Below, piece by piece: positions 33,904 to 48,307 of a stretch of 64,000 nucleotides of DNA. How positions within the stretch are numbered: the stretch's first letter is position 1; each line of letters opens with the position of its first letter. Location: positions 2,356,001-2,420,000 of the forward strand of contig NC_015160.1 in NCBI RefSeq assembly GCF_000190535.1, given 5' to 3'. The stretch is from Odoribacter splanchnicus DSM 20712 (GTDB lineage Bacteria; Bacteroidota; Bacteroidia; Bacteroidales; Marinifilaceae). Below the pieces are notes generated by a model, which did not search any database, was not told where the DNA came from, and was given only the letters and a program-made list of their open reading frames with translations. The position numbers and the translations under genes were made by a program.

Positions 33904-34251
33904 TTATTTATCGATTGGGATAAACACAGAAACATCGGGGTGATCTCCGGCCGGTAACCGTTTGCCATACCACCTTTGTTCGTCCGGAGCATAACAAAGG
34001 GCTATTAAATCGGTGTCCAGTCTATAGGATTCAAGGATTCCTCCTTGCCGGTCGAATACAATCAAATTACTGCAATACTGAAAAACATTTCCCGGTACTT
34101 CATCCGATCGGCCAAAATACAGGGTGGAGCCACACTCATCGGCAACCCCAATATCCATCATCCCGAAGCGATTTAATACCATTACCGGATCAGAATTCTG
34201 ATCCACACCCCAAAGGATAAAAAATAAACCGGTAAAAAATATTTTGCACAT
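33904..34251 (-). CDS. Small exported protein resembling the C-terminal part of a propeller protein
   Basis: The start at 34251 (MCKIFFTGLFFILWG) gives 115 aa with a leader peptide; the longer ORF from 34326 adds 25 residues without a leader. The end (LIVFDRQGGILESYRLDTDL, then ALCYAPDEQRWYG) resembles the last blade of Bacteroidales TolB-like propeller proteins. It may be a truncated propeller or a short relative. It lies 8 nt upstream of the DUF1573 gene and is the promoter-proximal gene of the cluster. Confidence 0.55.
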   Translation of the reverse strand: MCKIFFTGLFFILWGVDQNSDPVMVLNRFGMMDIGVADECGSTLYFGRSDEVPGNVFQYCSNLIVFDRQGGILESYRLDTDLIALCYAPDEQRWYGKRLPAGDHPDVSVFIPIDK

Positions 34252-34323
34252 ATCACATATTTTACTTAACTTTCCAAAACAAATTTCAGCATATTTTCTC
34301 AAACAACCTAATCGAAACAGTAG

Positions 34324-35181
34324 CAAAAAGCAGAATTCAATTTCCCCCTGATTTTATTTTTCAAACTAGCCCTGGAACGTATTCTTACTTCTATCCTGCT
34401 CTTTATCCTGATTATTTGTCTGACTTATCTTCTTTATCGGCTATTGAAAAATGAAAAAAAACTACGGGATAATCAAAAAGCATTTACGCATACTCTGGTC
34501 CATAACCTACGCCGGCCGATACTGAATATAAAATGCCAGTTGGAAAATCTTTTGTCCGACCAGCAGGACAAAACCGCCATCTCCCTGAACGAAACCTATA
34601 AACGATGTAAACAATGGACCGATAAAACTTTGGAAGATATCGAAAATCTACTGACCTTTTCTGTCGATGCCTACGGTCTGAAAGCCTGTATACAACCGAC
34701 CGATATCCGGGAATTGTTAACACAAATCACAACGGAATACAGGCAAAACAATAGCATCGGCAAACAAATCGATATACAAACAGAAATTTCTCCTACCGTC
34801 CCCCTTGCACAGGTCGATCCTTTACTTTTATATAGTGCCTTGGGAAACTTATTAGGAAATGCGATTAAATATTCAGGAACAAAAGTCCGTATTCGGATAG
34901 GTTGCCGCCGGGAGGCAAAAAAATGGATATTGACAGTACAAGACGATGGTTACGGCATACCACCCGAAGAACAAAAATTCATTTTTCAGGAATACAAACG
35001 GGGACAACGTTATAAAGGAGATAAACAACGGAAAGGATTCGGACTGGGACTCTGTTATGTGGCAGCAGTCGTAAAAGCCCACCACGGACATATTCAGGTG
35101 AACAGTGACGGAAAGCAGGGAACAGAATTTATCATCGAAATACCGCAGAGAAAAGCGAAAAGGCGAAAGGCTAGAAGCTAA
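34324..35181 (+). pseudogene. Histidine kinase, 5'-truncated remnant
   Basis: The reading frame is open from 34324 (after a TAG at 34321) but has no ATG before the kinase core. It encodes a membrane helix (LTSILLFILIICLTYLLYRL), a HisKA segment with phospho-acceptor His in THTLVHNLRRPILN, and an HATPase domain with NLLGNAIKYSG, DDGYGIPPEEQ and GFGLGLCYVAAVV. The periplasmic sensor and first membrane helix expected for this class are missing. A TTG at 34444 could start only a soluble kinase fragment. The last residues (KAKRRKARS) come from a purine-rich word repeat. It pairs with the split response regulator downstream. Confidence 0.7.
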
Positions 35182-35255
35182 AGGCTAGAAGCTAGAAGCG
35201 AAAAGCTAAAGGCTAGAGGCAAGAGGCGAAAAGAGGATAAGTTGGAGAAGAGGGG
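35159..35255 (+). repeat. Purine-rich degenerate word repeat
   Basis: A run of units such as AGGCTAGAAGCTAAA and GGCGAAA fills the kinase-regulator gap and enters the 3' end of the kinase frame. Similar runs, often followed by their complement, occur at 1910-1955, 4430-4530, 49250-49315, 51590-51670 and 57685-57805. Confidence 0.7.
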
Positions 35256-35279: not shown

Positions 35280-35894
35280 ATGAGTGTGATACGGATTTTA
35301 TATGTAGAAGACGACCTCGATTTCGGGCGTATGACCAAGGTTTTCCTGGATCAGGCCGGCTTTCTGGTCGAATTGACGACAAATGTTGAAGAGGCCTGGA
35401 AGTTATTCCATACCCGAAGGCCGGATCTGTTATTGGTCGACCTGGACCTTGAAGGCAGCAAGAACGGAATCGACCTCATCCGGCAGATTATCACCGAAGT
35501 AAAACAGTATCCGGTTATCGTCTATAGTTCGCATACCGATCCGGCAACCGTGATCACCACCATTGAACTGGGAGTCATGGACCATATCGGTAAAGATACC
35601 GACCGCGAAGTCTTCCTGGCCAAACTCAGAAACATAGCCAAACGCAATTACTCCCAGACAGGTGAAAACCCGCGATATAAACTATCGGCCATCACCACTT
35701 ACAACCAGAGAAACGGAGTATTGACCATAGGAAACAAAAGTCATAAACTGAAAGGGAAAGATATGCGATTGCTGCAATTGCTGTGCCTGCACTTCAATGA
35801 ATGGGTATCGCCCAAGGAATTAAGTTTCGGTTTGTGGGGAATGGAAAAAAATATCGGGGAACTGAAAAGATACATCGGCCATCTCCACCAGTAA
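35280..35894 (+). pseudogene. OmpR-type response regulator, 5' part, split by a mobile element
   Basis: This 204-aa reading frame has a receiver domain (ILYVEDDLDFG, phospho-site Asp in LLVDLDLEGS, a Thr/Ser-type switch in VIVYSSHTD) and most of an OmpR-type winged helix (KGKDMRLLQLLC, VSPKELSFGLWG). It stops at RYIGHLHQ, whereas relatives continue for about 25 more residues. Those residues are encoded at 48230-48307 in the right frame (RQELSEDPALSI...GGYYKLQGE). Joining the pieces gives 227 aa, a normal length. Loss of the final wing should abolish DNA binding. Confidence 0.88.
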
Positions 35895-35895
35895 C
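35885..35895 (+). other. Left attachment site (attL core)
   Basis: CCACCAGTAAC at the point where the response-regulator frame leaves the chromosomal sequence; partner of 48229-48239. Confidence 0.65.
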
Positions 35896-36467
35896 CGAAA
35901 ATCGATTTGTATAGCACTATTTCTCAATAAGTTATATCTTTATTACGATGTTAGTCCCTTGAATAAGGTTTTCACAACTTTGCACCGTTCAACACAAGTT
36001 TGTGTCTTAGGTTCGATTTCTGCGTGCAAAGGTAGATATTTATTTGGAATTATCAATATTTCCAAGAACTTTTTTTGTATTTACTACTAAAAGTCTGTTT
36101 GAATTTTGTTCAGCATTCTTTTAGGAGTTGTTTTGAGGATTTTTCTCTGTATCATTAAGAAGAATTGCAGGCTATGTGACGGAAGGTTTTCAATATCCAT
36201 GAAGTATATAGAAAGAACTTTAGTCGAAATGTCAGGTATCAATTTTCCCAATAGATTGAATCGTAAAGGAGTATTTTTATCGAGCAATATGTATACTACA
36301 TAAACCCCACTGGTTTCGAAACGTGCAGCCACATTACAAATAGGGTAAATTTCAATAATGGATTGTTTTGATGAAAAAAACTCTTCAATATTAGACTTAC
36401 TGACATAGGGCTGTCATAGAAGACGCTATCTTTGTATCAAAAAGTATTCAACTTAATATTATAGAAT
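35896..36467. other. Left end region of the element
   Basis: This 570-nt stretch holds the left 16-bp repeat AGTCCCTTGAATAAGG (35953-35968), a dyad ACACAAGTTTGTGT (35992-36005) and a minus-strand -7 match (plus CAAAGGTA, 36027-36034). A minus-strand frame at 36087-36332 (GTG start, 81 aa, open further upstream to about 36410) reads VYVVYILLDKNTPLRFNLLG and may be coding or the remnant of a gene, but it lacks a recognisable family or ATG. Confidence 0.5.
36427..36434 (+). promoter_or_regulatory. -7 box of the S51/WYL operon
   Basis: TATCTTTG, a full TAnnTTTG match, 33 nt before the ATG at 36468. No strong -33 box is visible. Confidence 0.6.
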
Positions 36468-37094
36468 ATGAAAAGATTATTTTTATGCTCATCATTTGCT
36501 GATGTTGCTAATCTATTTGTCGATTGTGCCAAAGAAGATTTGCAAGGGAAAATTATAGCTTTTATACCAACTGCAAGCCTTACAGAACCAATACGGTTCT
36601 ATGTAAAAAAGGGGAAAAAGGCTTTAGAAGAAGCAGGAATGATTGTTGAAGAAGTCGAGATTACCCAACTGCCCAAAGAGGAAATATCTTCTATATTACA
36701 TAAATGCGATTATATCTACATAACAGGTGGAAATACATTTTTCCTTTTGCAAGAGTTAAAAAGAAAAGGTGTTGATAAAATTATATCTAAACAAGTGAAA
36801 TTGGGTAAACTGTATATTGGGGAATCTGCCGGAGCAATAATAGCCTCTCCCGATGCAGAATATATGAAAAGTGTGAATTTTGATCCAATAGAAAAGGCTC
36901 CTGAATTGAAAGACTGTACTTCTTTAGATTTGGTCGATTTTTATACGATTCCCCATTATGGAAATTTTCCATTCAAGAAAAAAGGTGAAAAGATAGTTCA
37001 ACTATATAATGAGAAGTTGCAGCTTATTCCTATAAGTAATAAACAAGCTGTTATTATTGAAGATTCAAATATTCAAATTAAAGATGCAAAATGA
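36468..37094 (+). CDS. S51-family (peptidase E-like) protein
   Basis: This 208-aa cytoplasmic protein has the S51/class I glutamine-amidotransferase-like fold. It has YIYITGGNTFFLLQEL at about residues 83-98 and the nucleophile elbow YIGESAGAIIASPD with Ser in GESAGA at about residue 123; a His occurs in TIPHYGNFP. S51 peptidase E cuts Asp-X dipeptides, but mobile-element relatives may have other roles. It overlaps the regulator gene by 4 nt (ATGA) and is visibly AT-rich, so it is probably recent cargo. Confidence 0.82.
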   Translation: MKRLFLCSSFADVANLFVDCAKEDLQGKIIAFIPTASLTEPIRFYVKKGKKALEEAGMIVEEVEITQLPKEEISSILHKCDYIYITGGNTFFLLQELKRKGVDKIISKQVKLGKLYIGESAGAIIASPDAEYMKSVNFDPIEKAPELKDCTSLDLVDFYTIPHYGNFPFKKKGEKIVQLYNEKLQLIPISNKQAVIIEDSNIQIKDAK

Positions 37095-38023
37095 ATAGAA
37101 TAGACCGTATTGCTGCTATATTGATTCAGTTACAATCGCACTCGTTAGTGAAAGCACAGCAAATTTCAGAACGTTTTAATATAAGCATTCGCACTGTATA
37201 TCGAGATATAAGAACATTGGAAGAGGCAGGCATTCCTATCATAGGAAATCCCGGTATTGGTTATTCACTTGCAGAAGGATTCAAATTATCTCCTCTAATG
37301 TTTACTCAAAAAGAGGCTTTGTCCTTTTTGATTGCAGAGAAATTAGTACATGAACTAACTGATTCAAATAGCAACGAACATTATAAGTCTGGAATAGAAA
37401 AGATTAGGTCTGTCATGCGTTTTGCAGACAAAAATATGTTAGAAACAATGGAAAAGTGCATGTCTGTATTGGATACTTATAAATCATCTACCTATAAACC
37501 TGATATTCTTTTACTTATTTTACAAAGTATATACCAAAAAAGAATTATTGAAATATCTTATTTGGGAAGTAATGCGTTAAGTGTTTCAGAACGAAAGATT
37601 GAAGCTGTTGGAATTTTCTTTTCGAGAACTAACTGGTATCTAATAGGCTTTTATCTTCCCAAAGAAACCTATCTTACATTTCGGATAGATAGAATTCAAA
37701 AAATGCACATTCTTAATGAATTACAATCACGGGAGCATCCGCCCTTGGAAAAATTCATACGCGAGTTTTATGACAAAGAAAAATTACATGAAATCGTTAT
37801 AAGAATAGAAAAGAATAAAACCTCCATAATGAATGATGATAAATATTATTACGGATTAACATCTGAGAAAGAGATAGGGGATATGTTTGAGCTTCATTTT
37901 CTAACATTTTCAATCAGTAAGTTTGCACATTGGTATCTGTCTTTTGCAGATAGTGCAACTATAATAAGACCAGATTCTTTAAAATATGAAGTTAAAAATA
38001 TTATCAATAACATTTCTATTTGA
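37091..38023 (+). CDS. HTH-WYL (YafY-type) transcriptional regulator
   Basis: This 310-aa protein has an N-terminal winged HTH of the HTH_11 type (RIAAILIQLQ, KAQQISERFNISIRTVYRDI at residues 20-40) and a WYL domain at about 140-220, in which the W-Y-L positions are in TNWYLIGFY with R/D in FRIDRIQKM. WYL domains sense ligands such as nucleotides or ssDNA and are frequent near defence genes. It is co-translated with the S51 gene and probably controls it. The C-terminal WCX region is present. Confidence 0.85.
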   Translation: MNRIDRIAAILIQLQSHSLVKAQQISERFNISIRTVYRDIRTLEEAGIPIIGNPGIGYSLAEGFKLSPLMFTQKEALSFLIAEKLVHELTDSNSNEHYKSGIEKIRSVMRFADKNMLETMEKCMSVLDTYKSSTYKPDILLLILQSIYQKRIIEISYLGSNALSVSERKIEAVGIFFSRTNWYLIGFYLPKETYLTFRIDRIQKMHILNELQSREHPPLEKFIREFYDKEKLHEIVIRIEKNKTSIMNDDKYYYGLTSEKEIGDMFELHFLTFSISKFAHWYLSFADSATIIRPDSLKYEVKNIINNISI

Positions 38024-38054
38024 TTGCTGTCAAATAGTATTTTTAATCGACTAA

Positions 38055-38667
38055 ATGAAAAAAATATTCGACCAAAGATTTTTCCGCTTATTGTCGGAAT
38101 GCTCACAACGTAAAGTGTCTGCATCTGAATTTGCAGAAGCTATCGAAGAATTGGCGACCCATGTAGCCGATTTCAGTATTACAGAACAAGATTATAGCAT
38201 TTTACTCCGCTATTTCTCTTTTGGTTTGCATCGTCTTAAATCATACCGTGTATGGTTTGAGCAGGAAAAAAATATCCTATTTGTATCTAATTGATGAAGC
38301 GATAGGGCTATTGAATACCGAAATACGCCTAATCGAATGGCGTATCAAGTACCCGGAACAGTTGCAGCAACGCACCAACAAACAAGCCCTTTCCCCTCTC
38401 TATCTCGCTGACAGAACCACTCTTATCAATATCATGGAAATAGTTAGCGGGTTGTTCCTTTCCCAAAAGATTGTGTATCAAAATGGCAAGCCTGTTTATT
38501 TAGTGGACTTGACGAAAGCCTTTGAATGGCTTTTCAATATCAAGATAGGTGACTGTTACCAAAAGCATGAGGACGTGATAAAACGAAAGCCGGGCAAGCT
38601 GACAGAGTTTCTTAATGGACTGGCAGAACTTATCAAAAAGGAACATGACAAGAAAGGATATAGATAA
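38055..38667 (+). pseudogene. RteC-like regulator, split by a frameshift
   Basis: Two overlapping frames (38055-38294 and 38221-38667) look like one protein of about 200 aa. The first gives SLLSECSQRKV-like helical sequence ending RVWFEQEKN; the second continues from YLIDEAIGLLNTEIRLIEW to a C-terminal part (DLTKAFEWLFNIKIGDCYQ) laid out like the winged-helix end of RteC. The switch lies at a run of seven A residues at 38266-38272. RteC activates excision genes in Bacteroides elements. It may be a mutation, a sequencing error or slippage; assignment to RteC is moderate. Confidence 0.55.
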
Positions 38668-38797
38668 TCAGTGACTTATGATTTATTTATAGGGGATTCC
38701 ATTAGTTCCCCCGTAATTTCTTTGCGCCCGATTTCTGAACTTTGCTTCATCAATCGATTGACAGACCATAATGTATAATCAGAAAAATGAAGCAATC

Positions 38798-39130
38798 ATG
38801 TATATAGAGAATGACGATTTCAGCGTATGGATGCAGAAGCTGTACGCCAAACTGGAAGAACTCTGCAAGGATGTACGGGTACTGCGCAATGCCGACAGGG
38901 TGCTGCCCGAAGATGACAACCTGCTGGATAATCAGGACTTGTGCCTGCTGTTCAAAGTAAGTATCAAGACCCTGCAACGCTACCGGGCTATCGGTGCGCT
39001 GCCGTACTTTACAATCAGCGGAAAAGTGTACTACAAGGCTTCCGATGTCCGGGAGTTCATCAAGGAGCGGTTCAGCGTCACCACGCTACGCCAGTTCGAG
39101 AAAGAACACTGCACGAAGAAAAAGAAGTGA
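38798..39130 (+). CDS. Small HTH (MerR/excisionase-like) protein
   Basis: From MYIENDDFSVWMQKLY (38798; an earlier ATG at 38771 is possible) this 110-aa protein has a coiled helix, then an HTH_17-type domain: LCLLFKVSIKTLQRYRAIGA, a wing and KVYYKASDVREFIKE. Such proteins bind element ends or promoters and may act as excisionase. It is a paralogue of the products at 44481 and 44773. Confidence 0.78.
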   Translation: MYIENDDFSVWMQKLYAKLEELCKDVRVLRNADRVLPEDDNLLDNQDLCLLFKVSIKTLQRYRAIGALPYFTISGKVYYKASDVREFIKERFSVTTLRQFEKEHCTKKKK

Positions 39131-39172
39131 ATTAAAAAGCCGGGGCGGTTCTGCTCCGGCTTCGCTTTGGGT

Positions 39173-39898
39173 TTATGGTTTGCCCAGCTTGTCGGCTTGC
39201 TCTCTTAGCTGCTCGGCTTGTTCGTTCAACAGCCTTGCCCGTTCCAACGCTTCCGCCTGTTTCCTGCTGCGGTATTCAAAGCCTTTCACCGAATCGGTCA
39301 GGCTTCGGATGAAAGCGTTGTCCCGTTCCCGGCTGAACTTCGTTTCCAGCAAATCAAGGCTGCTGCCGTCTGCCTTTCCTTTCATCAGGATATAGCGGTA
39401 TTTTATATCGTTGTCTTGTAACCGCTGCATTCTTTGTATAAACCGCACATTCAATGCAAGCGACACAAGACAAATGATTATCCCTGCTGAAAGAAGAAAG
39501 AACTTGGGTTTCAAATAGGGAGTTACCCGGTATATCAGTTTGTCATGCCATGAAACGGGCGTTGTTTCTCCGGTCGGTGTATCATCAGCCGGGAACAACA
39601 CCTTTAACCGCTCCTTGAAATATCGGTGCGAGGTCACGATAAGCCCCTTTATATCTTCAAGGTCTTGTTTTTGGTTCTCGGACTGCCCTTTTCCGATACT
39701 GCCGATTTGGTTTAGAATCTCCTGTACCGTGTTTTCATGAATGCCGGATTTGCCCTGCATATCCGAAATGCGCTGTTCGATAACGTCCAGTCGGTTAATC
39801 GTTTCCTCCCGGCTGGCTGGCGTTACCTGCTTCTCCTGCCGTTCTTTCAGTTCCGTAACCATAGAGAGAAGCCCCTCCAAAATTAAGTTATTTTCCAT
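39173..39898 (-). CDS. Coiled-coil single-membrane-segment protein of the mob operon
   Basis: This 241-aa protein has N-terminal and C-terminal coiled coils (LTDSVKGFEYRSRKQAEALE...) and one membrane segment at about residues 133-153 (FFLLSAGIIICLVSLALNV). It has no catalytic motif. It starts 4 nt downstream of the relaxase and is probably co-transcribed. Similar small membrane proteins accompany Bacteroides relaxases and may link the relaxosome to the conjugation pore, but I cannot name it. Confidence 0.7.
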   Translation of the reverse strand: MENNLILEGLLSMVTELKERQEKQVTPASREETINRLDVIEQRISDMQGKSGIHENTVQEILNQIGSIGKGQSENQKQDLEDIKGLIVTSHRYFKERLKVLFPADDTPTGETTPVSWHDKLIYRVTPYLKPKFFLLSAGIIICLVSLALNVRFIQRMQRLQDNDIKYRYILMKGKADGSSLDLLETKFSRERDNAFIRSLTDSVKGFEYRSRKQAEALERARLLNEQAEQLREQADKLGKP

Positions 39899-39902
39899 GT
39901 TC

Positions 39903-40826
39903 CTATAATTTTAAGTGTCGTTTCTTTTTCTTCTTTTTTCTTTCACCGGGATTGTCGGGCGTTTCATCAGCCGGAGAGGACGGGGCAGAGAACAGACCGC
40001 CCAAGCCTGCCAGCAGCGGACTGTCGGCTTTGCCCGGTGTCTGTGCTGGTTCCTGAACAGGTGCGGAAACTATCTGCCTATTGTTTCCGGCAGTGTTCAG
40101 CCCCGCATCCCCGAAACATTTGTCCAGTTTGGAGAAACTGAAACTGCGGTCTACCTCCGAACCTTTGAACGTGTATTCGCCTTTGGAAAAGGATATGCCC
40201 TGTATCTCGCTTGTCTGCCCCTTGTATTTGAACTGGATAGTAATACCCTTTTCCGCTAACCGCTCCTGTAACTGCTGCCAGTTCTTGGACTTCCCGGATT
40301 CATTTTTTACAGCGTTGTAAATCTCGTATTTGGATTTGTCCGGTTCTCTCAAACGGTGCTGCTTTACATGCTCCTTGCCTTTAGCGAAATAAAGTCCGTG
40401 TTTGGCTTTCAGCTTCTTGCATACCTGCTCGTTACGGTACATGTCGTTCCTGTCCGAAATGGTCTTGCCGTTGTTGTCTATGCGGTTGAACACGATATGC
40501 ACGTGCGGATGTTCCCGGTCTTGGTGTCGCACGATGATGTACTGCGTATCGGTGATTTTCATTTCACGCATGTACTCCTGTGCAAGCTGTACCATTTTCC
40601 CGTCTGTCAGCTTGGGTACGTCCACCGGGGAATAGCTTAGCGCAATATGTCCGACAGGCTTTTTCAGGTCGGGGTTCATCCCGGCTTGCAGAATGAAACT
40701 GTGTATGATGTCCCGATTGCTTTCCGCTAACACTCCCTCCGCATGAAGCAAGGCAGCCTGTTCCTTGCCGAGTACATAGTTCACGCAGCCTTTAAATCCG
40801 CTTCCCTTTTTTATTTTTCCAATCAT
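39903..40826 (-). CDS. Relaxase/mobilization nuclease
   Basis: This 307-aa protein has the relaxase fold: N-terminal GKIKKGSGFKGCVNYVLGKE, the metal-binding motif HQDREHPHVHIVFNRID (three His) at about residues 99-115, and GKTISDRNDMYRNE after it. It nicks oriT and is carried into the recipient. The C-terminal third is low complexity and ends in a Lys-rich tail. It overlaps the MobC-like gene by 35 nt, so translation is coupled. It belongs to the MobP-like PF03432 type used by Bacteroides mobilizable elements. Confidence 0.9.
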   Translation of the reverse strand: MIGKIKKGSGFKGCVNYVLGKEQAALLHAEGVLAESNRDIIHSFILQAGMNPDLKKPVGHIALSYSPVDVPKLTDGKMVQLAQEYMREMKITDTQYIIVRHQDREHPHVHIVFNRIDNNGKTISDRNDMYRNEQVCKKLKAKHGLYFAKGKEHVKQHRLREPDKSKYEIYNAVKNESGKSKNWQQLQERLAEKGITIQFKYKGQTSEIQGISFSKGEYTFKGSEVDRSFSFSKLDKCFGDAGLNTAGNNRQIVSAPVQEPAQTPGKADSPLLAGLGGLFSAPSSPADETPDNPGERKKKKKKRHLKL

Positions 40827-41175
40827 CCGACAGTTGGTTTATGATTTCGACAATCCTGTTCTTGAGTTTCACCAGTTCCACCGCTACCAGTGCGAATCCT
40901 CCGGCATTCGCCCGGTGCGCCAGCTGGTTGATGTTGTTGGCTTCGCCCGCCAGCTTGCGGATAGTGTCCGCATCCTGCCTGTTCAGCCGGGGCGTTACCT
41001 CTGCCGAAACGACCGCCTGCCGGACGTACTCGCTGAGGTGCAGCCCGGCTTCGGTGGCTCGCTTCCTGATTGCGTAGAACTGTAACTCGGTCAGTTTCGT
41101 GCTGACTACCCGGTTCTGCTTGTCTATCCGGCTTTTTGCCGGGCGACCTCCCGGTTTGTTCCTTATCCCTGTCAT
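40792..41175 (-). CDS. Relaxosome accessory protein (MobC-like)
   Basis: This 127-aa basic protein has an N-terminal ribbon-helix-helix-like part (RVVSTKLTELQFYAIRKRAT, then GLHLSEYVRQAVV) and a MobC domain (LAGEANNINQLAHRANAGGF, residues 76-95). It binds oriT and helps the relaxase open the strand. The candidate oriT hairpin lies 71 nt upstream. It overlaps the relaxase gene. Confidence 0.85.
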   Translation of the reverse strand: MTGIRNKPGGRPAKSRIDKQNRVVSTKLTELQFYAIRKRATEAGLHLSEYVRQAVVSAEVTPRLNRQDADTIRKLAGEANNINQLAHRANAGGFALVAVELVKLKNRIVEIINQLSDDWKNKKGKRI

Positions 41176-41245
41176 ACGTTTTTGCTTTTAGGTGGTATCT
41201 TAAAAATTGCGACCAACGGGAGAAATTTTCTTTGCTGTCAAGCAA

Positions 41246-41282
41246 AGCAAGGTGTTTCGGTCTACCGAAACATAACCTTGCT
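41246..41282. other. Candidate oriT hairpin
   Basis: AGCAAGG + TGTTTCGGT pairs with ACCGAAACA + (TAA bulge) + CCTTGCT around a 2-nt loop, 16 paired bases in total, preceded by a second small dyad TTTGCTGTCAAGCAAA (41231-41246). It lies in the 156-nt gap upstream of the MobC-like/relaxase genes, the usual place for oriT. Confidence 0.55.
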
Positions 41283-41331
41283 CTCCCTAATCACACAGCC
41301 TGCCGTCTGTTCATGCCGCCAGCCTTGCAGG

Positions 41332-42312
41332 TCACATCCTTAGCCCTCTCTTTCTTTTTTCACCCGGATTTTGTCTGTTATCCTGCTCCGGCTGGGGCTT
41401 GTCGGTAACTGTCAAGTCTTGGGATTGTTTCACTTTAAGGCTACGCAAATAGTCGTTCAGGTCATTGTGACCGCTGTACAGGTGTGATGCGTCACGTACA
41501 CGCCATTTGTATTCCTGCCTTATGGCTTCAACCGCTTTCCTGCCTGCCTCGTCATTGTCAAGCATACAATGTATATGCCCGTAATCAGCCAACGGATATA
41601 AGGCTTTATCCGTGTTGGCGGTGGAGTTCAGAATAACGTAGTCCTGCCAGTCGGTACAAGGCATATCCGGGCTTTTCTGTTGCCGGATAGTGAGGAATGA
41701 GAGGAAATCCAAAAAGCCCTCGAACACGAAACAGGTATCTCTCGGCTCTCCCTGCTGCCGTATATGGGTAATGTCTTTCGATGTGCTGCCCTTGAAACGG
41801 GGATTGCGAAGCTCGTAACCTCCTGAATCATTTTTGAATGCCAGCGCAAAATAAGGCTTTCCACCGATGCGGTAATACATTTCCTGCACGTATGGGGATG
41901 CCGTTCCGGGCGAAATCCCCCTTTCCTGCAAATAGCGTATGAGTGCCGGATTCTGTAACGGCTGTATTCTGCGTATCTCTATCGGGCTGGCTGCTTGCCT
42001 TTTCGTGTCCCTTTCGGGCAGGTCTTTCCCGTGAAAGGAAAAAGAGGCGGTGTTGCCCTGTTCCAGTCGGCAGATAGCACCGTAGGCATTGCATCCGTGC
42101 TGCTTCATCACAAGGTCGATGAGCGTCCCGCCCTCGCCAGTTCCGTAGTCACACCATAGATTGACGTTATAATCCACCTTGAAACTTGGCGTGTTGTCCT
42201 CCCGTAAGGGGCTGCGGTACATCCCGTAACTTCCTTTTTCCGTGACGGGCTGGATTCCAAAAGAGTTCAGGTAATCTTTGATACTGATATTGTTGGCTTC
42301 CTTATAGGTCAT
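41332..42312 (-). CDS. DNA primase-like protein (CHC2 zinc finger/Toprim)
   Basis: The start at 42312 (MTYKEANNISIKDYLNSFG) gives 326 aa; the longer frame adds an unlikely 37 residues. The N-terminal part follows the CHC2 zinc-finger pattern (MYRSPLREDNTPSFKVDYN, WCDYGTGEGGTLIDLV), with some metal ligands replaced. A C-terminal Toprim part has YVILNSTANTDKA and HCMLDNDEAGRKAVEAI. It probably primes element replication. The CHC2 zinc site looks incomplete, as is common in element-borne primases. Confidence 0.83.
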   Translation of the reverse strand: MTYKEANNISIKDYLNSFGIQPVTEKGSYGMYRSPLREDNTPSFKVDYNVNLWCDYGTGEGGTLIDLVMKQHGCNAYGAICRLEQGNTASFSFHGKDLPERDTKRQAASPIEIRRIQPLQNPALIRYLQERGISPGTASPYVQEMYYRIGGKPYFALAFKNDSGGYELRNPRFKGSTSKDITHIRQQGEPRDTCFVFEGFLDFLSFLTIRQQKSPDMPCTDWQDYVILNSTANTDKALYPLADYGHIHCMLDNDEAGRKAVEAIRQEYKWRVRDASHLYSGHNDLNDYLRSLKVKQSQDLTVTDKPQPEQDNRQNPGEKRKRGLRM

Positions 42313-42621
42313 GATTTTTATTTTTAAATTTAACGATAGTAATAATGAAGCAAGAAGCGAGTAAGAAGAAGCACGGGACACTACTACATCTATCTGTTTC
42401 TTTTTCAATGGTTTGTAGTACATGTAGTAACATAGTAATTATTTATCCTTTAAAAAAGGAATAAATATATCCTATATATTATATTGCCGTTTTTTCTTTT
42501 TCCCGGATTTTCCGAAAGTTTGGGATTCTATCTTACTTCATACTACATAATTGTTAAACTGTTGTTTATTAAATTGTTATCTATATCTCAAACAGTATGT
42601 AGAAGCTACTACATCCCGGTT

Positions 42622-43854
42622 TTACCCGTAATCATCCCCTGTACGGGAAGCCGAAACAGGCTTTATCCTGTACCCATATACGGGATAATAGTTGTTGTTT
42701 ATGCGCTTTTGCACCCGTTTGAAACCGATTTTCCGCAATGATTCCCCCAATCTTTTTTCGGATAACTGAACAGGGGATATATTGCGTAGGTGTGCGAGTA
42801 TCTGTGCGGTAGTCATGAAACAGTTCCTTTCCTCCTCTGCTGTCGGTTGTTCAAAGTATTGCATCAGCATTTCAAACTCGATTGTCTGCACCTCAAATTC
42901 CGCATTTGTCAGGTGCAGTTCTTCAATCTCCGCATCATTGAACCAATAGCGTACACCCTGACGGTACAGGTACATGATTTCGGAATAGACGTTATCCATG
43001 TGAATACTTTCTGCCGTGGGCTTGTCTATGTACAATACTTCAAAGGGCAAAAAACGCCTGCTGCCTGTCGGGTCGGTCAGGAACTCGTTGCCGTTCACCG
43101 AAGCCATGAAGCTGGCAAGGTGGGGGTATTCCTCTATGTAAACATCATACGGTCTGCGGTATTTCACTGCCGGGGTAGTGATAAGGTTCTTCAAGGCGTT
43201 CTCGTTCTGCTTGTTGAGTTCCTTTAGCTGGTCGTCAATGTTGATGAACAGGTATTCGGCTATCAGTGTCAGGATGTCTTTGCCCTGCGGGTCTATCTTC
43301 CCGGTAAACAGGTAATTCTTAAGCGGTGTCGGGCAAAGGTTGTCCAGCCACCACGATTTGAACTGTCCCTGCTTGTCCCCGGTCAATACCAGACAGGTAT
43401 GGTTCTGACATCCCGTGTCGTTCATCGCGTTGGCTACCACACCGATAAGCCATTTCGTGAAATATTCCTCCCATTTGCCGGGGTTGGCTACCTGTACCGT
43501 GTTCAGGAGTTTGCCGATATATCCGTGTTCGGCAGGATTCAGCAAGGGCAGGGCGTTGAAATACTCCTGTATGGGGTGAGCCTTTCTTGCGAAATCGCTT
43601 TCCAGTATCATGCGGATGTTGTCGGTAGAGGTGGAAATGTCAGCCGTTGCGTCCAGTCTGCGCCTGAAAGTGTTCAGGGCAAATTTTGTAACGGGCTGGT
43701 ACAAGTCCGCAGAACTTGCAGCCCGGTATTCCGTCCGGCTCTTTACGGTATTGAACCGGAAATCGTACAGGATGTTCAACAGGCTTTCGATGCGCTCGTT
43801 CTTAGACTGCCAGCCCTCGATATGCCGTGTATCATCACTTCTTTTCTTTTTCAT
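42622..43854 (-). CDS. VapE/VirE-like replication protein (SF3-type ATPase)
   Basis: The start at 43854 (MKKKRSDDTRHIEGWQSKNE) gives 410 aa. The ATPase core has LVLTGDKQGQFKSWWLDNL at about residues 153-171, where the usual GxGKT is GQFKS, so the glycine before Lys is missing. Downstream are FINIDDQLKELNK (Walker B-like), TPAVKYRRPYDVY and FMASVNGNEFLTDPTGSRRF, all typical of the VapE family. It acts with the primase on element replication. It overlaps the HTH gene at 43835 by 20 nt. Confidence 0.8.
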   Translation of the reverse strand: MKKKRSDDTRHIEGWQSKNERIESLLNILYDFRFNTVKSRTEYRAASSADLYQPVTKFALNTFRRRLDATADISTSTDNIRMILESDFARKAHPIQEYFNALPLLNPAEHGYIGKLLNTVQVANPGKWEEYFTKWLIGVVANAMNDTGCQNHTCLVLTGDKQGQFKSWWLDNLCPTPLKNYLFTGKIDPQGKDILTLIAEYLFINIDDQLKELNKQNENALKNLITTPAVKYRRPYDVYIEEYPHLASFMASVNGNEFLTDPTGSRRFLPFEVLYIDKPTAESIHMDNVYSEIMYLYRQGVRYWFNDAEIEELHLTNAEFEVQTIEFEMLMQYFEQPTAEEERNCFMTTAQILAHLRNISPVQLSEKRLGESLRKIGFKRVQKRINNNYYPVYGYRIKPVSASRTGDDYG

Positions 43855-44143
43855 CGGGAAGTCTGTTAGAAGCCGGGACATACTGCTGCTGCATCCACTT
43901 TTTGAGTTCCTCCATGTCGAAACGCAGGGTACGCCTACGCTTGACACACGGTATCATCCCCTTGCTGGCTAAGTGGTACAGGTAATTGACCGAATACCCG
44001 GTTATGCCGCTGGCAACGGATATTTTGACTAACACAGGCTCTTTTCCGTCCTGCCGTTCTTCGGGCTGTGCGCCCATGACCGGGGCAATCATCTTTTCGA
44101 TGTTCTCCAGCCGCTTGAAAATTTCTTCGAAAGGATTATTCAT
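43835..44143 (-). CDS. Small HTH (excisionase-like) protein at the head of the replication operon
   Basis: This 102-aa protein has an N-terminal helix (FEEIFKRLENIEKMIAPVMG) and an HTH_17 domain (VSSAVA-type: KISVASGITGYSVNYLYHLA, then RTLRFDMEELKKWMQQ). It is the first gene of the minus-strand primase/VapE operon and divergent from the regulator at 44481, with a repeat-rich region between. It may regulate that region or assist excision. Confidence 0.8.
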   Translation of the reverse strand: MNNPFEEIFKRLENIEKMIAPVMGAQPEERQDGKEPVLVKISVASGITGYSVNYLYHLASKGMIPCVKRRRTLRFDMEELKKWMQQQYVPASNRLPDEKEKK

Positions 44144-44480
44144 GAGTGCTTAATTTTTGAATTAGCACCACAAATAAAATAAGAAAAATCGGTAAAAAAC
44201 AAAGCGTCAGCCGTTTGGAATCGCTTTGCTGCGCTCTGCGCCAAATTAATGTCGGTAAATAGAAAACGGCTTTGTGTTCATTACCTTACTTATTTAGAAA
44301 GTGGGGGAAACCGGGATTTCTGTTCTCTTATTGTTTCTTTCCTGTTCGCTTGGGGCAGTGGTGGACATTTTCGGACACGTAAGGTCATTTGCGGACAGGA
44401 AGAAACAACCTGTCATTCAGTCTTATATATTTGCACCAGTGAAGAAAAACGGAGTATTGACAATAATAAATATATCGGTT
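44144..44480. promoter_or_regulatory. Repeat-rich divergent control region
   Basis: Direct repeats TCGGTAAA (44189-44196, 44252-44259), interlocking inverted pairs CAAAGCG/CGCTTTG (44200-44206, 44222-44228) and AGCCGTTT/AAACGGCT (44209-44216, 44264-44271), two 15-mers GGACATTTTCGGACA and GGTCATTTGCGGACA exactly 20 bp apart (44363-44377, 44383-44397), and ACAGG/CCTGT (44395-44413). A -7 box TATATTTG lies at 44426-44433, driving the gene at 44481. The region could be an operator set, a replication origin or both. Confidence 0.55.
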
Positions 44481-44768
44481 ATGGAAATAGTGACGATTGA
44501 AAAGAGAACCTTTGAACTTTGGAAACAGAGGTTTGAAAACTTTGTGGGGCGTGTGGATGCGCTCTGCGTACCTTTACGCAGGAAGCGTGACAAGTGGCTG
44601 GATAACTGCGAAACCTGCCGTTTGCTGAATGTTTCAGCCCGGACGATGCAGACTTACCGTGATACGGGAAAATTGCCTTATTCGCAGATAAACAATAAGA
44701 TTTACTACAAGGCTTCGGACGTGGAAACATTTCTGCTCAACCAAGTAAGGGACAATTCTAAAAAGTAG
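44481..44768 (+). CDS. Small HTH protein
   Basis: The start MEIVTIEKRTFELWKQRFEN at 44481 fits the -7 box at 44426-44433; a longer frame from 44301 runs through the promoter. This 95-aa protein has an HTH_17 domain (CRLLNVSARTMQTYRDTGKL, then KIYYKASDVETFL), a paralogue of those at 38798 and 44773. It is probably a regulator of the element and is co-transcribed with the next gene (4-nt gap). Confidence 0.8.
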   Translation: MEIVTIEKRTFELWKQRFENFVGRVDALCVPLRRKRDKWLDNCETCRLLNVSARTMQTYRDTGKLPYSQINNKIYYKASDVETFLLNQVRDNSKK

Positions 44769-44772
44769 GCAT

Positions 44773-45054
44773 ATGGATTTGATAACGAAAGATTCCGATA
44801 CTACACTGGTACTGTTTTCCTCCCTTGACAGGGTGCTGGAAAACGTGGAGTACGTGGTAATGAACTATCGCCCGGTATTGAACGGTGAACACTACCTGAC
44901 GGGCGAGGAAGTATGCGAGCGGCTTTGCATCAGCAAACGGACTTTGCAGGATTACAGGGACACGGGGCTGCTGGGGTACGTGCAGCTTCCGGGAAAAATC
45001 ATCTACCGGGAAAGTGACATCATGGATTTGTTGGAAAGGTTCTATCAGAAATGA
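44773..45054 (+). CDS. Small HTH protein
   Basis: This 93-aa protein has an N-terminal helix pair and the HTH_17 unit EEVCERLCISKRTLQDYRDT followed by GKIIYRESDIMDLLERF. It follows the gene at 44481 with a 4-nt gap. The three paralogues share the helix-turn-helix, wing and Y-x-S-D-[IV] end, which suggests related DNA sites. Confidence 0.8.
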   Translation: MDLITKDSDTTLVLFSSLDRVLENVEYVVMNYRPVLNGEHYLTGEEVCERLCISKRTLQDYRDTGLLGYVQLPGKIIYRESDIMDLLERFYQK

Positions 45055-45248
45055 AATCTTGAAAACATGGAATCTTGTTTTATTGCTGTCTTGCTTCCTT
45101 GAAAGATTGAAGTATTGAAATATAGCTGTCTTGTTTTCTATATTGTTTGGTTGAAAGCCTGCAATCACGGTTTCTTGAAAACTGTGTTGCGGGCTTTGAT
45201 TATTCAAAAGTTTAACCTTGTACTTCTAAATATATTTAATTGAATTTG

Positions 45249-45256
45249 TATCTTTG
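45249..45256 (+). promoter_or_regulatory. -7 box of the SEFIR gene
   Basis: TATCTTTG, a full TAnnTTTG match, 24 nt before the ATG at 45281. It decides that start over a frame beginning at 45254. Confidence 0.65.
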
Positions 45257-45280
45257 CTTCTATTTAACTTTGTAGTATTT

Positions 45281-46708
45281 ATGGGAAATTCAATCAAATT
45301 ATTTATTTCATATAGTTGGACTAACCAAGACCATGAAACTTGGGTGCTTAACCTTGCAAAAGAATTAGTCGAAAATGGAGTTCATGTTGTAATTGATAAA
45401 TGGGACTTGAAAGAAGGACAAGATTCCTATTCTTTTATGGAAAAAATGGTTAGTGATACAGAAATTCAAAAGGTTTTAATTATTTCTGATAAGAAATATG
45501 CAGATAAAGCGAATGGAAGAGATGGGGGCGTTGGTACTGAAACACAAATAATTTCTGCTGAAGTTTATAAAAATAGGCAACAAGAAAAATTTGTTGCTGC
45601 TGTCGTTGAACGAGATGAAACTGGTGAAGCTTATCTGCCAGTATATTACAAATCAAGAATCTATATAGATTTTTGTGAGCCAGAAAATTATGCAGATAGT
45701 TTTGAAAAATTACTTCGTTGGATATATGATAAACCTTTATACAAACGTCCTCCTATAGGGAAACAACCTGCATTTCTTAATGAAAGAGATGATATTGCTT
45801 TGGGAACCTCATTTCTATCTAAAAGGGTGCTATTGGGATTGAAAGAAGCAAAACCGTATGTAAATGGTGCAATTGAAGAGTATTTGGTTACCCTCTCAAC
45901 AAATATTGAAGCTTTGAGAATAGATTGTAAACCAGAAGAATATGACGATAAGCTGATTGAGAAAATAGATGCTTTTATACCTTATCGTAATGAATTTATT
46001 CAAATTTGCATTTCTGTTTGCCAATACTCTGATGATATAAAAATTGATAAATTCTATCATTTCTTTGAAAAATTAATACCTTATTTTAAAAAACATGGAA
46101 CTGGTAGCTTTTATGAACATGAGTTTGATGTCTTCAAGTTTATAGCTTATGAACTGTTTTTGTACTATGTCGCTATACTATTGAAATATGAAAAATTTAT
46201 AGATTTGGATGAGTTTTTAGATAAACAATATATGGGAAGTGAAGATAGTTATGGCTATGATGTAGAGGGGTATTTGATATTCTATAATTATTTGAAGTCA
46301 TTAGATTATAGAAATAGGCGGCTAAATTGCCGGAAATTGTCTTTGTTTGCAGATATAATAAAAGAAAGAGCAAAACATTTGAGTATTGATTTTTCTGATT
46401 TGATGCAAGCTGATTTTGTGCTTTTTTTGAGGGCGGAACATTTAATACACAATGATTGGAGAAAATGGTATCCTCAAACATTGATATATTCGGAATATAG
46501 AAGAAAACCAATGGAAATTTTTTTTAGAGCTCAATCTAAGAAATATTTTGAAAAAATGAAATGCGCTATTGGTTTTGATGATGTACAAGAATTAAAATCT
46601 TTTATAGAAGAATATTATACAGAAAAAAGGGAGATTCCAAGGTGGCAGCATTGTTCTTTCAGTCCTAAAGGATTGGCTAATAGTGATAATTTGTGTTCAA
46701 AAAGATAG
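45281..46708 (+). CDS. SEFIR-domain protein (candidate phage defence)
   Basis: This 475-aa protein has an N-terminal SEFIR (TIR-like) domain at about residues 4-150: KLFISYSWTNQDHETWVLNL, VVIDKWDLKEGQDSY and KYADKANGRDGGVGTETQII, all typical family blocks. Bacterial SEFIR proteins are known as single-gene anti-phage systems that deplete NAD on activation. The C-terminal 320 residues are helical, without a recognised domain, and may sense infection. The gene has its own promoter, is visibly AT-rich and sits next to the integrase, as cargo usually does. Confidence 0.82.
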   Translation: MGNSIKLFISYSWTNQDHETWVLNLAKELVENGVHVVIDKWDLKEGQDSYSFMEKMVSDTEIQKVLIISDKKYADKANGRDGGVGTETQIISAEVYKNRQQEKFVAAVVERDETGEAYLPVYYKSRIYIDFCEPENYADSFEKLLRWIYDKPLYKRPPIGKQPAFLNERDDIALGTSFLSKRVLLGLKEAKPYVNGAIEEYLVTLSTNIEALRIDCKPEEYDDKLIEKIDAFIPYRNEFIQICISVCQYSDDIKIDKFYHFFEKLIPYFKKHGTGSFYEHEFDVFKFIAYELFLYYVAILLKYEKFIDLDEFLDKQYMGSEDSYGYDVEGYLIFYNYLKSLDYRNRRLNCRKLSLFADIIKERAKHLSIDFSDLMQADFVLFLRAEHLIHNDWRKWYPQTLIYSEYRRKPMEIFFRAQSKKYFEKMKCAIGFDDVQELKSFIEEYYTEKREIPRWQHCSFSPKGLANSDNLCSKR

Positions 46709-46712
46709 AGGG

Positions 46713-46745
46713 GGGGAAGAAGATGAATAATAGTTCTTCTTCCCC
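46713..46745. terminator. Shared hairpin between the SEFIR gene and the integrase
   Basis: GGGGAAGAAGA (46713-46723) pairs perfectly with TCTTCTTCCCC (46735-46745). It lies between two converging genes and may stop both, but T-runs are short. Confidence 0.6.
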
Positions 46746-46754
46746 TTTGGATGT

Positions 46755-47981
46755 TTAGAGTGCAAGCTGTTCCTCGACGGCTTGCATATCCCTTAATATC
46801 GTTTGGTCTAACACCTTTGCATAATGTTGTGTCATTCGGGTGGATGAATGCCCCAGCATTTTAGCCACATTCGGCAGTGACACGTTGTTAGCCAGTGCGA
46901 TAACCGATGCGAAACTATGGCGGGCTGTGTGCGTGGTCAGGTTCTTTTTGATACCGCACAGGTCGGCAATCTCTTTCAGGTAGCTGTTCATCTTCTGATT
47001 GCAGGGAACGGGTAATAAAGTTCCTTTATCCATGCAGTAGGGGTTATCCTTGTACTTTTCAAGTATTTGTTTGGGAATGCTCAAAAGCGGGATGTTACAA
47101 AGGTTATTTGTCTTTTCACGGGGTTTCACTATCCACAGATTACCGTTGCCGTCCTCGGAAATATGTTCGGGGTGCAGATTATACACGTCTATGAATGCCA
47201 GCCCGGTATATACGCAAAAGATAAAAACATCCCGTACCAGTTCCAGCCGTTCAATCTTGAACTCTTTCTGCCATATCCGGTTTATCTCGGATTGGCTTAG
47301 GAACTGTTTGTTTACCTCTACCTCGTGAAACTTGATTCCGGCAAATGGGTTCTTTGTCAGCCACTCGTTGGCAATGGCAAGGTTTATCACTTTTTTGAAG
47401 CATTTCATGTACCGGATAACGGTATTTTGTGCGCAATGCTTTTCTGTCTTTAGGTATAAATCGAATTTACGCACCAGTTCCCCGTTTACCTCACGTAGTA
47501 GTATATCATCTATCTTGTAGTCACGTTTAACCAGTTCCATGAGATATTTAAGGCAGTTATCGTAACGTCTTACGGTGATGTCGGCATAGTCCGTCCCGAT
47601 TAGCTTCCGGCAGTTGTCGTTATGCTCCTTGAACACATTGTATAATGTCTTGAAAGTTTCGTCCTTTCCCTGATAGCGGTTCACTATGGCACGTGCGGAG
47701 ATAATCTTTCCCTCCAGTTCCAAGTCTTGGTAAATCTGATAGAATTTCACACGCAAGGCGTCAATGTAATGGTTAAGTTCTACGGAGTTTCGGTCTTTGC
47801 CTGTCGATTTCTCTTTTTCCTGCGACCAGAGTGGGACTTTTACGCTCCGCTTTAGTTGAAGTTCCACGTATAGGCGGTCATAAGTGACACGCACACGCAC
47901 GGGTGCTTCCCCGTTTTTTAACAGTTTGCTACGCTTGATGAAGAACAACACGCTGAATCTTTTTCTTTCCATACGGCTCAA
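46755..47981 (-). CDS. int: Element tyrosine recombinase (integrase)
   Basis: This 408-aa protein has an N-terminal arm-binding domain (RKRFSVLFFIKRSKLLKNGE), a SAM-like core-binding domain, and a catalytic domain with HTARHSFASVIALAN, MLGHSSTRMTQHY and the Tyr nucleophile in QHYAKV. The Arg I position reads YTGLAFIDVYNL, lacking the usual Arg, as in the IntDOT group of Bacteroides elements. A minus-strand -7 box TAACTTTG (plus CAAAGTTA, 47994-48001) lies just upstream. It should recognise the direct repeats and att cores described here. Confidence 0.93.
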   Translation of the reverse strand: MSRMERKRFSVLFFIKRSKLLKNGEAPVRVRVTYDRLYVELQLKRSVKVPLWSQEKEKSTGKDRNSVELNHYIDALRVKFYQIYQDLELEGKIISARAIVNRYQGKDETFKTLYNVFKEHNDNCRKLIGTDYADITVRRYDNCLKYLMELVKRDYKIDDILLREVNGELVRKFDLYLKTEKHCAQNTVIRYMKCFKKVINLAIANEWLTKNPFAGIKFHEVEVNKQFLSQSEINRIWQKEFKIERLELVRDVFIFCVYTGLAFIDVYNLHPEHISEDGNGNLWIVKPREKTNNLCNIPLLSIPKQILEKYKDNPYCMDKGTLLPVPCNQKMNSYLKEIADLCGIKKNLTTHTARHSFASVIALANNVSLPNVAKMLGHSSTRMTQHYAKVLDQTILRDMQAVEEQLAL

Positions 47982-48229
47982 TTTTTAATGATACAAAGTT
48001 AGGAAATCGAACCGAGAACCCTGTTATGTAAAATAGCGCAACAGACTGTAAAAGAATGAAGTAAATACCTCGCAGTGGAACATTTCGGGCTTTTGAAAAC
48101 AGTCCCTTGAATAAGGACGTATAGTTTGCTCTAATCCCACTAATTTTGCCTATTCTTGGAAAAGAAAAATCCCCGAATCTCTTTGAAATTCAGGGATTTA
48201 CATCGTTTTTCTTTCTTAAAAAGTGGTGC
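47982..48229. other. Right end region of the element
   Basis: It holds the integrase promoter (47994-48001), the right 16-bp repeat AGTCCCTTGAATAAGG (48101-48116) and a hairpin AAATCCCCGAAT/ATTCAGGGATTT (48168-48179, 48188-48199) that may insulate the element from outside transcription. There is no ORF. Confidence 0.65.
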
Positions 48230-48239
48230 CGCCAGGAAC
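48229..48239 (+). other. Right attachment site (attR core)
   Basis: CCGCCAGGAAC, matching attL at 9 of 11 positions; the response-regulator reading frame resumes here. Confidence 0.65.
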
Positions 48240-48307
48240 TGAGTGAAGATCCCGCGCTAAGCATCGAGAACAAACACGGGGGGTACTATAAGCTGCAAGG
48301 AGAATAA
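48230..48307 (+). pseudogene. 3' fragment of the split response regulator
   Basis: Twenty-five codons read RQELSEDPALSI...HGGYYKLQGE and a stop, the C-terminal wing of an OmpR-type response regulator. The frame is the continuation of the gene piece ending at 35894. It has no start of its own and is not a gene by itself. Confidence 0.88.

Follow-up and report, generated by a model that had tools for sequence, protein, structure and literature searches.

A mobilizable-type element with tRNA-Phe-associated relatives splits a response-regulator gene of Odoribacter splanchnicus

RESULTS

An OmpR-type response-regulator gene is split in frame

Analysis of a 64,000-nucleotide stretch of the Odoribacter splanchnicus DSM 20712 genome (contig NC_015160.1, positions 2,356,001 to 2,420,000, forward strand; "the window," with positions counted from its first letter) revealed an OmpR-type response-regulator gene that is split in frame by an element of 12,344 bp. 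The gene parts, read from the window sequence, the element, and its attachment (att) cores are as follows.

35280 to 35894, plus strand: 5' part of the response-regulator gene, 204 amino acids with a receiver domain and an incomplete winged-helix domain; the stop codon is element DNA
35885 to 35891, minus strand: attL core CTGGTGG, in the minus-strand reading gtta-CTGGTGG-agatgg; the left arm is that of a Bacteroides nordii element (locus L141)
35887 to 48230, no strand assigned: integrative mobilizable-type element, 12,344 bp, with ends taken from related elements and from flank joining
48229 to 48235, minus strand: attR core CTGGCGG, in the minus-strand reading gttc-CTGGCGG-caccac
48231 to 48307, plus strand: 3' end of the response-regulator gene, comprising the end of the recognition helix, the wing and the stop codon, in a frame matching the 5' part

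The 5' part ends in ...RYIGHLHQ-stop, and the insertion cuts off the last 23 amino acids of the regulator. Joining of the two flanks by script gave one open reading frame of 227 amino acids. An intact form of the same length was found in the protein database (P0001), representing a cluster of 854 members, a size that does not imply full length in every member. P0001 differs from the joined flanks at positions 14 and 157 only, and the last 40 residues are identical (...RYIGHLRQELSEDPALSIENKHGGYYKLQGE). An initial annotation of the window had proposed that an element of about 12.3 kb splits the regulator in frame and that the missing wing is encoded near 48.23 kb, restoring 227 amino acids upon joining. 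The ends at 35887 and 48230 and the open joined flanks bear out the former, and the exact match of the P0001 C terminus confirms the latter. The uninterrupted site would be expected to read ...CATCTCCGCCAGGAACTG...

Comparison of the domain matches revealed that the Pfam model Trans_reg_C covers profile positions 3 to 39 of 77 in the window regulator, under the cut-off, versus positions 5 to 76 of 77 in P0001, over the cut-off. An AlphaFold2 model of P0001 (6 sequences; mean predicted local distance difference test score, 82.1; predicted template modeling score, 0.56) placed a helix at residues 192 to 206 and strands at 213 to 217 and 221 to 225. Since the protein ends at residue 204, the final two residues of the recognition helix and both wing strands are lost. 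KdpE, a structurally solved OmpR-type regulator, aligns with the regulator across the GHLRQ motif. The truncated regulator is therefore predicted to have lost normal DNA binding.

The element ends match those of related elements

The right end was located by alignment with loci carrying related integrases. In 18 such loci the alignment to the window begins at one base, 48238, three bases past the core; these bases, TTC, are alike in tRNA-Phe and the regulator. The alignment starts 6 bases earlier in L043 and 3 bases later in L068. The left end coincides with the far end of the B. nordii element. On the plus strand, the cores read CCACCAG (attL) and CCGCCAG (attR), and the first CC is common to both; the limits 35887 and 48230 are therefore exact only to within the core, inside which the exchange point cannot be fixed. 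The two cores differ by one base, as is seen at secondary integration sites. The claim of the initial annotation that both ends are fixed to a few bases is thus backed by the related loci on the right and by B. nordii on the left. Its proposed core, CCxCCAGxAAC, contains the 7-base core, which reads CTGGYGG on the opposite strand; the remainder proved to be partial similarity of the flanks.

A search of IMG/VR yielded 0 matches to the left-end pattern of the element and 1 match, located at tRNA-Phe, to the right-end pattern. In the plasmid collection, 4 records gave partial matches, none of which reached 80% coverage.

Close relatives of the integrase lie next to tRNA-Phe genes

The element encodes its own integrase at its right end.

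46755 to 47981, minus strand: tyrosine integrase (Arm-DNA-bind_5, Phage_int_SAM_5, Phage_integrase); relatives with 87 to 99% identity lie next to tRNA-Phe

An integrase scan of genome contigs returned 27 loci with related integrases. L052, L065, and L066 lack a readable end, and the target counts rest on the remaining 24. tRNA-Phe adjoins 18 of these 24 loci, with the anticodon GAA assigned by ARAGORN in those tested. L047 adjoins a partial tRNA-Phe copy located 1.65 kb from a whole tRNA-Phe; L043, L048, L059, and L068 adjoin CTGGTGGCACCAC without a tRNA beside it and were read as tandem insertions; L061 adjoins another tRNA-like end. Among the 15 loci with at least 87% identity, 8 lie directly at tRNA-Phe, 4 are tandem-like (L043, L047, L048, and L059), and 3 are unreadable. 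No regulator gene was found as a target in any of the 24 readable relatives, the flanks of 4 tandem-like loci being unannotated. In L047, L043, L048, L059, and L068, family elements appear to be stacked in tandem via repeated CTGGTGGCACCAC ends. In L052 (Bacteroides fluxus), the integrase match starts at residue 67, and the DNA similarity to the window starts there too.

The B. nordii element lies in tRNA-Phe and has 94.0% identity to the window element across the 10,202 of the latter's 12,344 bases that were aligned in the stretch compared. Its left end reads gattttcggtta-CTGGTGG, the same as that of the window element, and is followed by caccac; a whole tRNA-Phe stands at its right end.

At an E value of at most 1e-100, an integrase relative was present in 36 of 393 sampled genomes of the order. 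ARAGORN analysis of 14 of these relatives' loci (L078 to L091, of which L078 to L080 coincide with loci of the 27-locus scan) assigned tRNA-Phe to 4, another tRNA (Asp, Ser, Lys, or Gln) to 6, and none in the stretch to 4. A motif scan of L078 to L106 added L092 and L102 at tRNA-Phe.

tRNA-Phe genes of the host carry an altered core

The host genome consists of one contig of 4,392,288 bp and contains two tRNA-Phe genes, both whole and ending in CAGGTGCTACCA. Their end reads GTTCGATTC-CAGGTGC-TACCA versus GTTCGATTC-CTGGTGG-CACCA at the sites of the relatives, so that the primary site of the family is known and is altered in this host. A search with a tRNA-Phe pattern, to which differing 3' ends would be invisible, matched 41 of 59 genomes and revealed 13 copies in 7 of 8 Odoribacter genomes, all reading CAGGTG[C/A]TACCA, i.e., CAGGTGCTACCA or CAGGTGATACCA. 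Across the family to which the genus belongs, the same search gave mixed tRNA-Phe 3' ends. The initial annotation had taken insertion into a regulator gene, and not into a tRNA, as the way of this element; the tRNA-Phe 3' ends used by the close relatives and the altered cores of the host tRNA-Phe genes do not support this.

Against the attP assembled from both ends, the 7-base core shows 1 mismatch in the regulator site and 2 in the host tRNA-Phe. Two further accounts of the site choice were rejected. That an already occupied tRNA-Phe drove the element off target is not borne out, since the integrase scan of the host genome gave no match beside either tRNA-Phe gene. The regulator site is also not the uniquely best core match, since the genome contains 7 copies of GTTCCTGGYGG, the regulator site included. 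The core can thus account for this site being usable, not for the choice of this one.

The partner kinase gene is truncated

The histidine kinase gene upstream of the regulator gene is damaged as well, a feature that the initial annotation had missed.

33904 to 34326, opposite strand: open reading frame upstream of the truncated kinase
34330 to 35181, plus strand: histidine kinase remnant with the second transmembrane stretch and the dimerization and ATPase domains; junction near 34327

The remnant is without the sensor and the first transmembrane stretch, about 172 N-terminal amino acids. The full form in the protein database (P0020, 452 amino acids, cluster of 804) matches the host genome at residues 166 to 451 only; two stops lie at the upstream edge, and the frame is open from about 34330. 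The host genome contains no near-identical second copy of the N-terminal part of the kinase. Two variants were found in the database: a sensor-only form (P0111, 221 amino acids, cluster of 43) and a kinase-only form (P0021, 240 amino acids, cluster of 81), which overlap in NEKKLRD. These may mark broken alleles in other strains, caused by insertion or frameshift, or may be gene-calling or assembly artifacts. The kinase C terminus reads ...KAKRRKARS in the window versus ...KAKD in P0020, and imperfect 7-, 14-, and 21-base repeats lie at 35151 to 35233, between the kinase and regulator genes.

The element encodes mobilization functions and a defense-type cargo

The remaining genes of the element, with domains assigned by Pfam where no other source is given, are listed below.

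36468 to 37094, plus strand: peptidase S51 family protein (PF03575, 6.2e-49)
37091 to 38023, plus strand: helix-turn-helix (HTH)/WYL transcriptional regulator
38221 to 38667, plus strand: RteC-like protein with a partial profile match (PF09357, 9.2e-07, profile 142 to 216 of 219)
38771 to 39130, plus strand: HTH_17 protein
39173 to 39898, minus strand: protein without a Pfam or NCBIfam match
39903 to 40826, minus strand: MobA/VirD2-type relaxase (PF03432, 5.6e-36)
40792 to 41175, minus strand: NikA/MobC-type mobilization accessory protein (NikA-like, MobC over the Pfam cut-offs)
41332 to 42423, minus strand: primase-like protein (Toprim_2)
42622 to 43947, minus strand: VapE-like domain protein
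43835 to 44143, minus strand: HTH_17 protein
44301 to 44768, plus strand: HTH_17 protein, putatively excisionase-like from its domain
44773 to 45054, plus strand: HTH_17 protein, putatively excisionase-like from its domain
45254 to 46708, plus strand: SEFIR/TIR-domain cargo protein of the bSEFIR defense type (PF08357, 1.3e-18; PADLOC bSEFIR, 8.9e-118)

The VapE-like protein is, judged by its family, presumably a helicase. With its own tyrosine integrase (arm-binding, SAM-like, and catalytic domains) and its own relaxase with an accessory mobilization protein, the element has the features of an integrative mobilizable element, which supports the mobilizable type named in the initial annotation. 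In the element proteins, all NCBIfam relaxase and MobA/MbpA models scored under their cut-offs. No type IV secretion machinery was detected by the Pfam scan of 15 element open reading frames, other small or overlapping frames lying outside that scan. The TraG model TIGR03783 had no match in the genome, a weak negative because 14 control genomes also gave none over the cut-off.

The cargo gene is predicted to be of the defense type. The PADLOC bSEFIR model matched residues 10 to 482 (profile 35 to 384 of 412). The slot that holds it, at about 45197 to 46769 beside the integrase, was unaligned in 4 of 4 relatives compared (L043, L046, L047, and L048). The window element carries bSEFIR there, and relatives carry other genes, as in some loci, or almost nothing. 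A search of the open-licence literature for bSEFIR returned no paper.

DISCUSSION

The locus is best explained by an NBU-like element with a tRNA-Phe-targeting integrase that has, very probably, recombined into a secondary site within the regulator gene. The site is regarded as secondary because the B. nordii element with the same left end and the close relatives sit at tRNA-Phe. The integrase of this family would act on the 3' ends of tRNA-Phe genes, recombining them with an attP that assembles from the two element ends as CGGTTA-CTGGTGG-CACCAC. There, the final CACCA is supplied by the element itself, which leaves a complete tRNA. The element presumably came from a host with a CTGGTGG-type tRNA-Phe. 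In Odoribacter, where tRNA-Phe reads CAGGTGC, it would have recombined into CTGGCGG on the non-coding strand of the regulator gene, probably by a 7-base crossover whose single core mismatch was resolved as CTGGTGG at attL and CTGGCGG at attR. The insertion brings in a TAA stop starting 6 bases past the last chromosomal base, and the protein stops two residues short of the end of the recognition helix, without the wing.

Several observations weigh against this explanation. A number of integrases at about 45 to 55% identity sit at other tRNAs; the target varies at this distance, and tRNA-Phe specificity is therefore established for close relatives rather than for the family as a whole. When about 19 bases are compared rather than the 7-base core, attP is matched better by the host tRNA-Phe (5 mismatches in 18) than by the regulator site (9 in 19), so that only the core backs the explanation of the site choice; the seven genomic copies of GTTCCTGGYGG count against it likewise. 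No second Odoribacter case was found: the only other member of the genus among the matches listed (G004) has integrases of 51 to 52% identity, one of which (L088) lies at tRNA-Asp. The element-free regulator is known from proteins, not from the DNA of an empty site, and searches of IMG/VR for empty-site or kinase DNA gave 0 pattern matches and 12 candidate stretches with no relative among them. The initial annotation had also named a 204-amino-acid form without the element as contrary evidence. Such a form was not found. Among the sequences examined, just one other protein, P0013 (2 members), ends in HLHQ; no DNA position could be assigned to it, and it is possibly a chimera, since its N-terminal half is a piece of glutamate dehydrogenase.

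The initial annotation had described an on/off switch that turns the two-component system off when the element is in and restores it when the element leaves. The regulator is indeed truncated. In favor of an element adapted to integrate at conserved 3' ends of regulator genes, the cut is precise and in frame, the joined flanks give an open gene, and the target encodes the HLRQ motif common to the OmpR-type KdpE. Nevertheless, such a program is highly improbable. With 18 of the 24 readable relatives at tRNA-Phe and none seen in a regulator gene, the 4 tandem-like loci having unannotated flanks, programmed targeting of the regulator was rejected. The restoring half of the claim fares poorly, because the sensor half of the kinase is lost in the same genome and because ICEBs1, in the cited sections of PMC3715440, is excised at 4 to 15% of the normal level from four secondary sites and undetectably from three. 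A reversible switch by excision is thus unlikely; since both partners are damaged, loss of the element by itself would leave the system broken. By analogy, the element may be poorly excised from the regulator site.

A different question is why the insertion was kept, and here decay of the system is compatible with secondary-site insertion. The system may already have been dead through loss of the kinase sensor, or its loss may have been selected, and the insertion would have survived at no cost. This has a chance a little short of even. The presence of lesions in two neighboring genes within a single genome speaks for it, as would the P0111 and P0021 forms if they mark further broken alleles rather than artifacts. 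Either the kinase lesion or the insertion may have come first, however, and the full-length representatives of the largest clusters (P0001, 854; P0020, 804) suggest that many strains retain the system. That no recombinase acted, and that homologous recombination or an assembly error produced the arrangement with coincidental end repeats, is hardly credible: the end repeats are just 7 bases with one mismatch, but both ends match those of related elements in other species, the genome is in one contig, and the intact protein exists elsewhere.

Secondary-site insertion of this kind is known, and the locus represents a natural instance of it. The nearest known element types, according to the portions of PMC5704250 used here, are NBU1 and NBU2 (the latter 11.1 kb), which share with the window element a tyrosine integrase, a relaxase, and the lack of type IV secretion genes, and with its close relatives a tRNA 3'-end target. 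They differ in using tRNA-Leu (NBU1) and tRNA-Ser (NBU2) instead of tRNA-Phe, and the window copy has bSEFIR as cargo and interrupts a protein gene; because of this position we call it NBU-like rather than assigning it to NBU1 or NBU2. As for ICEBs1 at secondary sites in Bacillus subtilis (PMC3715440, sections cited), an otherwise tRNA-targeting element, a 7-bp crossover region, and a mismatch leading to differing ends are seen. Those insertions come from laboratory studies of a self-conjugative element, whereas the present one concerns a mobilizable type in a natural genome with a differing tRNA gene. SGI1 of Salmonella is likewise a mobilizable element found at a second site and in tandem arrays at att sites; per the passages cited from PMC2297512, it entered its secondary site sodB-purR in every case in which the first site had been removed, as well as in 43% of wild-type transconjugants, but that site is intergenic, and thdF rather than a tRNA gene serves as the primary site. 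A search of the open-licence literature, which is no proof of absence, found among the papers listed no report of a secondary-site insertion of such an element into a response-regulator gene. NBU1, a Bacteroides element, reportedly integrates non-specifically in E. coli, a foreign laboratory host, going by the title of work by Shoemaker from 1996.

The locus thus offers a natural case, apparently in the sequenced type strain of O. splanchnicus, in which a tRNA-specific mobile element breaks a protein gene. Signaling studies of this strain should take into account that both partners of one two-component system are damaged. That tRNA-Phe differs between genera also suggests a simple idea of why tRNA-targeting elements go off target upon a change of host. 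It is conceivable, though we consider it rather unlikely, that small changes of the tRNA-Phe 3' end act as a host barrier, with the Odoribacter form CAGGTG[C/A] in place of CTGGTGG making tRNA-Phe elements from other Bacteroidales strike protein genes and become trapped. If so, arriving elements would be barred from their harmless site and would be gene-breaking mutagens, and the regulator site, where the HLRQ motif of a recognition helix is encoded, would be one trap.

The second-closest integrase of the host genome (L002/L077, at about 1607.8 to 1609.2 kb, 55% identical) lies beside the tRNA-like end CGAATCCCAGGCGGATCAC. In the stretch examined, ARAGORN found no tRNA and no far end was seen; this locus could be another off-target insertion.

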